The notes under the pieces were generated by a model that saw nothing but the letters and a program-made list of their open reading frames with translations, did not search any database and was not told the origin of the DNA. A program made the position numbers and the translations under genes. Positions 4,502-7,262 of a stretch of DNA of 64,000 nucleotides are shown here, piece by piece. Position 1 is the stretch's first letter, and each line of letters opens with the position of its first letter. Origin of the DNA: an uncultured Euryhalocaulis sp. (lineage in GTDB: Bacteria > Pseudomonadota > Alphaproteobacteria > Caulobacterales > Maricaulaceae); the NCBI GenBank assembly GCA_913055605.1, contig CAJXKJ010000002.1, positions 1 to 64,000 of the forward strand. The letters run 5' to 3'.

Positions 4502-4927
4502 ATGAGGACCCTGATTTACGCCGCCGCTTTGGGCGGGGCCGCAGCCCTCGTTCTGGTTCCCGCCGCCGCGGGCGCCGATCCGAAACACTGCCCGCCGGGC
4601 CTGGCCAAACAGGACCGCTGCGGGGCCGATTTCCGCGACCATCAGCGCGGCGAATACGGCCATGATGGCTGGTTCGAGCGGGACGGGATTTTCTTCCAGG
4701 ACCGCGACCGGATCGATGACGCCTATGAGGCGGGCTACCGGGACGGCCAGCGCGACGCCTGGCGCGCTGGACAGCGCCTGCCGCGCGACGTCGATATCGC
4801 GGTGATCCGCGACTATGACCGCTACGGCCTCAACGCCCCGCGGGACGGCTATTATTACGGTCAGGTCGACGGCCAGACCCTGCTGATCCAGACCGCGACG
4901 CGGATGATCGCCGAAGCGCTCCAATAA
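4502..4927 (+). CDS. Exported RcnB-like small protein
   Basis: Encodes 141 residues with an N-terminal signal peptide ending near the ADPKHC junction, so it is probably periplasmic. The C-terminal half (DYDRYGLNAPRDGYYYG, then a hydrophobic TLLIQTATRMI helix) follows the pattern of the RcnB/DUF1311-neighbour group of small alphaproteobacterial envelope proteins, where RcnB affects nickel and cobalt homeostasis in enterics. That metal role is family knowledge only and is not proven here. GGGAG lies about eight bases before the start. A terminator follows at 5001. Confidence 0.75.
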   Translation: MRTLIYAAALGGAAALVLVPAAAGADPKHCPPGLAKQDRCGADFRDHQRGEYGHDGWFERDGIFFQDRDRIDDAYEAGYRDGQRDAWRAGQRLPRDVDIAVIRDYDRYGLNAPRDGYYYGQVDGQTLLIQTATRMIAEALQ

Positions 4928-6990: not shown

Positions 6991-7099
6991 GCGGGGGCAA
7001 ACCGGGACAGGAGGGCGTGATGCACGGGCGGTCCTTGCGCGCGGGGCCGCATCGCCCCATCTTGGCGTCAGTCATTAACAACGAGAAGGAGGTGATCCA

Positions 7100-7186
7100 A
7101 TGTCGAGTGATACGCGGAAGGGTTCTATCGCCCAGCGCAGCGTCCGGATCGTTGGAGCAGCCTCCATTGGTTCGCGCGCGCGCTAG
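7100..7186 (+). CDS. Possible 28-residue peptide with a perfect Shine-Dalgarno
   Basis: An ATG at 7100 opens a 28-codon frame (MSSDTRKGSIAQRSVRIV at its start) ending TAG at 7186. Its support is the ribosome-binding site: AAGGAGGTGATCC at 7086-7098 is the exact complement of the last 13 bases of 16S rRNA. A terminator hairpin lies 45 bases downstream, so the unit looks like a short self-contained transcript. The peptide is basic, has no membrane segment and is not a family I recognise. It could be a real microprotein, a leader peptide, or a ribosome-binding RNA. Confidence 0.45.
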   Translation: MSSDTRKGSIAQRSVRIVGAASIGSRAR

Positions 7187-7230
7187 CGTCGTCTGACGCA
7201 GTCAGGGGCGCTGAACCCCTCGCATCACGG

Positions 7231-7262
7231 AAGGGCCGTCCGGCAGTCGGGCGGCCCTTTTC
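7231..7262 (+). terminator. Terminator after the 28-codon ORF
   Basis: An 11-bp stem with one G-U pair (AAGGGCCGTCC with the GGGCGGCCCTT region) is followed by TTTTCC. It closes a transcript of about 150-200 bases that includes the 7100 ORF. The stretch 7263-7388 before the next gene holds nothing else certain; GCTAAAC at about 7344 resembles an alphaproteobacterial -10 element. Confidence 0.8.

Follow-up and report, generated by a model that had tools for sequence, protein, structure and literature searches.

Which product is encoded by a locus that carries an exact complement of the 16S rRNA end ahead of a very short reading frame? The locus lies in a 64,000-nt stretch of DNA from an uncultured Euryhalocaulis sp. 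(the window). The original prediction listed a 13-base complement, a 28-codon frame and a terminator, and proposed either a microprotein or a ribosome-binding small RNA. All three elements were found at the positions listed below. The 13-mer is present as a single exact copy in the window, where dinucleotide shuffles average 0.01, and also as a single copy in the 3.16-Mb assembly. As for the terminator, a strong predicted hairpin is followed by TTTT, though the strict terminator scan, which uses a criterion of 5 T in 8, reports no terminator at the locus.

Anatomy of the locus and probable kinship with CC2171

The features are as follows.

7034..7062, + strand: RpoH (sigma-32)-type promoter, CTTGCGC - CCCCATCT, with 17 nt from CTTG to CCCC
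7070..7085, + strand: short 5' leader of the CAAC type common to the family
7086..7099, + strand: full Shine-Dalgarno (SD) block, complement of the whole single-stranded 16S 3' tail (13 nt + A)
7086-7098, + strand: 13-mer AAGGAGGTGATCC, exact match
7100-7186, + strand: 28-codon mini-ORF MSSDTRKGSIAQRSVRIVGAASIGSRAR with stop TAG, its ATG one base past the 13-mer
7107..7111, + strand: 5' strand of the predicted closing helix, GUGAU (fold and covariation)
7153..7166, + strand: predicted inner hairpin, UGGAG-CAGC-CUCCA (covariation and fold)
7224..7228, + strand: 3' strand of the predicted closing helix, AUCAC (fold and covariation)
7231..7262, + strand: predicted GC-rich terminator hairpin (7231-7259) with TTTT tail (fold; same place in the Rfam model)
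7076..7258, + strand: match to Rfam RF01867 (CC2171), full model 1-159, 41.1 bits

Promoter spacing would place the transcript start at about 7070. The 195-nt window RNA has a predicted fold of −97.1 kcal/mol (z = −4.74), and none of 200 shuffles is equally stable.

RF01867 has one match in the window's whole genome (41.1 bits, E = 3.7e-7). This score lies below the gathering cut-off of 75 bits, and the match is reported in E-value mode only; at the gathering threshold Rfam gives no match for this RNA, neither in the window nor in 14 loci. The alignment covers the full model length, including closing helix and terminator, with a mean posterior of 0.54 and a poorly aligned inner part. According to the Rfam consensus, RF01867 has the same leader, a full SD, GUG, the closing helix and the terminator, and the window copy resembles CC2171 in the leader CAAC...GAAAGGAGGUGAUCC, the start codon, the UC after it, the closing helix, the terminator and the full-length model match. 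It differs in having ATG where the Rfam model has GTG, in its interior and in its RpoH-type promoter; moreover, Rfam types CC2171 as an sRNA gene, with no ORF mentioned in the part of its output available, whereas the window copy carries a mini-ORF. We conclude that the window RNA is very probably related, though divergent, to the sRNA CC2171 of Caulobacter.

Across 61 genomes (own included), RF01867 matches 21, five of them above the cut-off. The places coincide with pattern, BLAST or R1 (covariance model, see below) matches in 17 of these 21 genomes, and no coincidence is seen in G007, G025, G042 and G058. By these overlaps, the window family appears continuous with accepted RF01867 members. 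Four RF01867 matches are found in G042 and three in G054, all but one in each weak, and these are possible paralogues. Among 14 named control genomes, matches occur in Caulobacter vibrioides and Deinobacterium chartae, one of them above the cut-off.

CC2171 itself is little studied. It was reportedly first described by Landt et al. in 2008. Searches of the open-access literature returned no paper for CC2171 together with Caulobacter and none for the signature sequence. No named sRNA in the accessible portions of PMC5082802, PMC10117765 and PMC2873474 could be matched to the window RNA, and S. meliloti RcsR1 was dropped as a candidate, being transcribed from the trpL position according to the accessible text of PMC7143759.

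Distribution and genomic context of the family

A DNA search that covered 61 genomes, the window's own included, matches 18; six matches in four genomes that cover the terminator region only, as well as the mid-sequence match L014, were not counted as family. The pattern AAGGAGGTGATC[CT]NATGTC is present in 75 genomes of an order-level sample of 398, and a scan of public genomes gives at least 118 loci. Among the matches listed, 80 titles belong mostly to Sphingomonadales, Rhizobiales, Rhodospirillales and Hyphomonadaceae/Parvularculaceae; L126 has a Gammaproteobacteria title, and two records, L059 (Virgisporangium) and L088 (Thermoproteota), do not seem related.

For alignment 43 rows were chosen, and L016, L017, L032 and L084 were dropped; covariance model R1 was built from the 39 remaining copies (alignment A1). 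R1 finds matches in 115 of 387 class genomes and 89 of 264 genera, counts that take in short local matches; part of the R1 matches in the class was inspected. In the window's own family the number is 14 of 137 genomes, and in a phylum sample it is 79 of 299, 77 of them belonging to the window's class and the other two to a single family outside it (f169). Outside the class, L244 and L245 (genomes G829 and G1003) carry AAGGAGGTGATCATATGTC together with an ORF of 18 codons and a hairpin resembling a terminator, and the pattern AAGGAGGTGATCNNATGTC is present in 2 of 59 genomes of the family that holds these two. Judged from these searches, the window RNA is one copy of an RNA family and not an isolated oddity. 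The expectation that site and frame would be kept in close relatives thus holds for related genera; it fails in the sole other genus genome searched (G001), where neither R1 nor RF01867 finds a copy, which suggests loss or strong divergence.

Most counts below refer to 138 copies, a set that was picked by an SD pattern, includes the seemingly unrelated long-ORF loci L059 and L088, and omits copies near locus ends and copies sharing an identical 100-base core. Of these, 53 are called Sphingomonadales-type, having TCATGG after ATGTC (L090, L123 and L135 fall in this group). Promoters were scored with what we take to be the RpoH consensus. The window copy has the top score of all 138 (11/11), and its CTTG-N17-CCCCATNT arrangement is that of a candidate RpoH regulon gene. 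RpoH-type scores of at least 9 are found in 38 of 138 copies, compared with 4.5 expected in mononucleotide shuffles, and are distributed as 33 of 85 in the remaining copies and 5 of 53 in the Sphingomonadales-type. The corresponding sigma-70-type values are 8 of 138 and 3.7. In some lineages (L233-L237) TTGACA-like boxes are seen by eye instead. Given this distribution, the stress link appears strong in the window copy and in many of its relatives, but not in the family as a whole.

In the window the locus is flanked by a divergent gene with Mem_trans (PF03547) and by a gene with Dioxygenase_C (PF00775). A short ORF followed by a terminator is a leader-like layout, so the RNA might act as a cis leader or attenuator for the downstream gene. 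This is, however, very improbable, since the flanking genes differ among lineages, no downstream gene shared between lineages was found in 107 loci, and the dioxygenase gene starts 127 nt beyond the terminator. When similar downstream ORFs of the 107 loci are clustered, the biggest groups comprise 13 loci (opposite strand) and 7 loci (same strand), based on mechanical ORF calls that are in part probably antisense. In a Pelagibacterium record, the copy at 4870 is followed a short way downstream by an FMN riboswitch (L091:5129-5280).

The 16S-tail complement, the predicted RNA fold and the mini-ORF

Pairing was evaluated against what we take to be the alphaproteobacterial 16S 3' end, to which the window match extends over 14 nt with the next A included. 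The 16S end GGCTGGATCACCTCCTTTCT was detected in 9 of 41 relatives' genomes; the 16S 3' end gave no match in the window's own assembly (G000). The original prediction also held that such long complementarity is rare. For 675 ordinary ORFs (window and loci L054-L171), the longest 16S-tail match lying no more than 20 nt from a candidate start is 8 nt, with one untraced exception of 13 nt. The predicted duplex of the window leader with the 16S tail has −26.7 kcal/mol, compared with −6.6 for AAGGAG. The predicted cost of opening the SD block is 5.2 in the window RNA, and its median over 114 copies is 4.4, versus 10.4 for a block further in.

Because the 138 copies were picked by SD pattern, conservation of the SD block within that set is no evidence. 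In 83 model-found copies, where the match was not forced, the exact 13-mer is kept in 56; both underlying models were trained on copies with the SD block, and two of these copies (L216 and L271) look spurious. Among 80 well-placed model-found copies, 4 have an inserted A and the other 76 carry 23 substitutions, which are not independent events. Pairing is kept via G-U in 16 of the 23 (C13 to T in 8, A10 to G in 6, A1 to G in 2) and broken in 7 (C13 to G in 3, C13 to A in 2, T11 to C in 2). An extra A within the SD block (AAGGAAGGTGATCC) interrupts the 16S match in L191, L229, L231 and L232. Upstream of the block, all 53 Sphingomonadales-type copies have a GA that extends the match, although it was no search requirement; the other 85 have the G in 76 cases and the A in 79. 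Across the family, leader complementarity to the 16S tail reaches up to 15 nt.

Copies were folded with the SD and AUGUC held unpaired, and a script found the terminator in 114 of 138. A long-range closing helix, running from just past AUGUC to the terminator, is predicted in 113 of these 114 and starts at the second or third base past AUGUC in 107 of 113. Its strands covary, with pairs such as GUGAG/CUCAC, GUGAU/AUCAC, CAUGG/CCAUG, CAUUG/CAAUG and AUGAG/CUCAU. In a swap test, helix runs of at least 7 are formed by the copy's own strands in 44 of 114 cases versus 3.7% of swaps; runs of at least 5 give 103 of 114 versus 63%, and separation is weaker at lower thresholds. The covariation score of A1 is 0.482, compared with 0.245 for shuffles and at most 0.153 for slides, and double changes occur in all 15 pairs of two helices, the closing helix and the inner hairpin. 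The closing-helix structure for A1 was supplied by hand and the 3' row ends were cut at the folded helix, so the covariation test leans towards that helix; the swap test is independent of this cut. From A1, RNAalifold predicted the inner hairpin together with a short pairing of GGA with UCC within the SD block; the closing helix was absent from its result. Interior length is highly variable among the copies, and those of the Sphingomonadales-type have a different interior.

Of the 80 well-placed copies, 64 start with ATG, 15 with GTG and one with TTG. The ATG of L175, one of the 64, lies one base closer to the SD block, and L238, which is outside these 80, has a TTG start. Of the 53 Sphingomonadales-type copies, 46 have an ORF of 18 codons; among the other 85, 78 have one of 20-26 codons. 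In the former 46, codon 19 is a stop that may be TAA (22), TGA (22) or TAG (2); the position is kept while the codon varies, and this position appears to be under selection. Counts of synonymous changes, taken from sequence pairs that are not independent, show a deficit in the 18-codon set (403 vs 626 expected) and an excess in the 26-codon set (318 vs 187 expected), with smaller length sets near expectation. Accordingly graded, the peptide seems unconserved in the Sphingomonadales-type set and may be conserved in the 26-codon set. As to whether relatives would conserve the peptide or the RNA, then, structure, SD block, start and stop position are kept, and the peptide seems to be given up in the former set and may hold in the latter. 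Of 63 scored copies, 57 read the inner-hairpin loop in a single frame (EQP-type), and each of the two remaining frames is used by 3; the window copy belongs to these six. For all three frames (63 copies with a pattern-recognised loop), the stop codon falls 7-33 nt past the loop. NCBIfam gives no match to four peptides. The short ORF is replaced in L090 and L123 (both Azospirillum records) and in L135 by one of 57-59 codons, which begins like a signal peptide; the closing helix is still predicted in these copies. The mini-ORF is probably translated.

Proposed function and its alternatives

The 16S-end match, the tiny ORF and the spread of relatives over the Alphaproteobacteria suggest a conserved, ribosome-binding RNA. 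We tentatively read the locus as a free-standing small RNA gene, a structured mini-mRNA/sRNA that is stress-linked and would dock the 30S subunit via the whole 16S tail, and put this at a little short of an even chance; ribosome binding as the main function is judged equally tentatively, and kinship with CC2171 is much surer than this docking function. Under the docking model, the RNA would be made upon protein-damage stress and would dock the 30S through the complete tail (predicted duplex of about −27 kcal/mol, opening cost of about 5). The docked subunit would be held at the closing helix, because this helix starts at the point where the RNA would be threaded into the 30S. Opening of the helix would allow translation of the mini-ORF, whose peptide would hardly matter, being translated for the act. 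The outcome would be either a ribosome trap or decoy that damps SD-dependent initiation, or an RNA fold switched by its own translation. The model is invoked for the maximal 16S match, the apparently selected start and stop with a changeable peptide, and the helix at the 30S threading point. Counting against it are the missing copy in G001 and the low share of matches in the window's own family (14 of 137), the few high RpoH scores among Sphingomonadales-type copies, the synonymous excess of the 26-codon set, the seven substitutions that break pairing and the four copies with an inserted A. Rather doubtful is the class-wide version, a stress-induced 30S-trapping RNA with whole-tail pairing, a helix at the mRNA channel and an obligatory mini-ORF, in which start and stop but not the peptide are conserved.

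Of the two products originally proposed, the ribosome-binding sRNA is the better half, since the 16S complementarity, the start codon, the place of the stop and the RNA structure are all kept class-wide, and the microprotein fares poorly in the Sphingomonadales-type set. A small mRNA that uses a very strong ribosome site to make a functional microprotein would account for the conserved start, length and stop, the preferred EQP-type frame and the synonymous excess of the 26-codon set, and the longer ORF of L090, L123 and L135 does resemble a secreted protein. Against it stand the synonymous deficit of the 18-codon set, the different frame in which the window peptide reads the conserved hairpin and the four peptides without an NCBIfam match, and we consider it quite improbable. 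Slightly less so, though still unlikely, is a translation-switched sRNA, in which the ribosome, moving through the mini-ORF, would unfold the inner hairpin to make a seed accessible, with 16S pairing only securing high initiation. The stop codon shortly past the loop in three frames and the covarying hairpin fit such a switch; however, no conserved seed was identified outside the hairpin, and the variable interior length and the distinct Sphingomonadales-type interior argue against it.

A trans-acting or sponge RNA, whose SD block or inner loop would pair with other RNAs such as the anti-SD (CCUCC) sRNAs SisA-D, has as low a likelihood as the microprotein. The RNA is stand-alone and highly structured, with a terminator, and sRNAs bearing an anti-SD do exist according to the accessible text of PMC12559287 and PMC3927594. 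The conserved match, however, reaches GAUCC and the upstream GA, which the 16S tail explains better, and start and stop conservation are left unexplained. In the window's genome CCTCCTCCC, the one anti-SD motif counted, is not enriched (43 sites vs 53 for the reversed control), and a sponge for CCUCCUCCC sRNAs was dropped, as the motif count gave no support.

In comparison with known systems, the docking model shares with E. coli S15 (rpsO), where mRNA structure entraps the 30S, the idea of a subunit docked on a structured start site; no ancestry is claimed, and the E. coli case is cis autoregulation by a protein. In Staphylococcus aureus, 16S-tail pairing beyond the core SD guides start choice, as described in the available part of PMC13009471. 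The likeness lies in this extended pairing, but there it is a feature of mRNAs in general and the solved structure shows two additional pairs, whereas here a single RNA family has it, with a predicted maximum of 15 contiguous pairs. SisA-D and SmelA075/SmelA099 are likewise stand-alone structured sRNAs using SD/anti-SD chemistry, but carry the anti-SD, whereas the window RNA carries the SD (accessible portions of PMC12559287 and PMC3927594).

For Caulobacter, the accessible text of PMC4117421 reports that 75.4% of genes are without an SD, that SD strength correlates poorly with translation efficiency, that intergenic ncRNAs in general are untranslated, and that two previously predicted ncRNAs proved translated. 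Since most Caulobacter genes lack an SD and its strength predicts little, a class-wide complete complement of the 16S tail is striking. The window RNA is a below-cut-off relative of CC2171 with a 16S-tail complement and a mini-ORF, and the docking model would make of this uncharacterised sRNA family a specific and testable case of ribosome control by RNA under stress.
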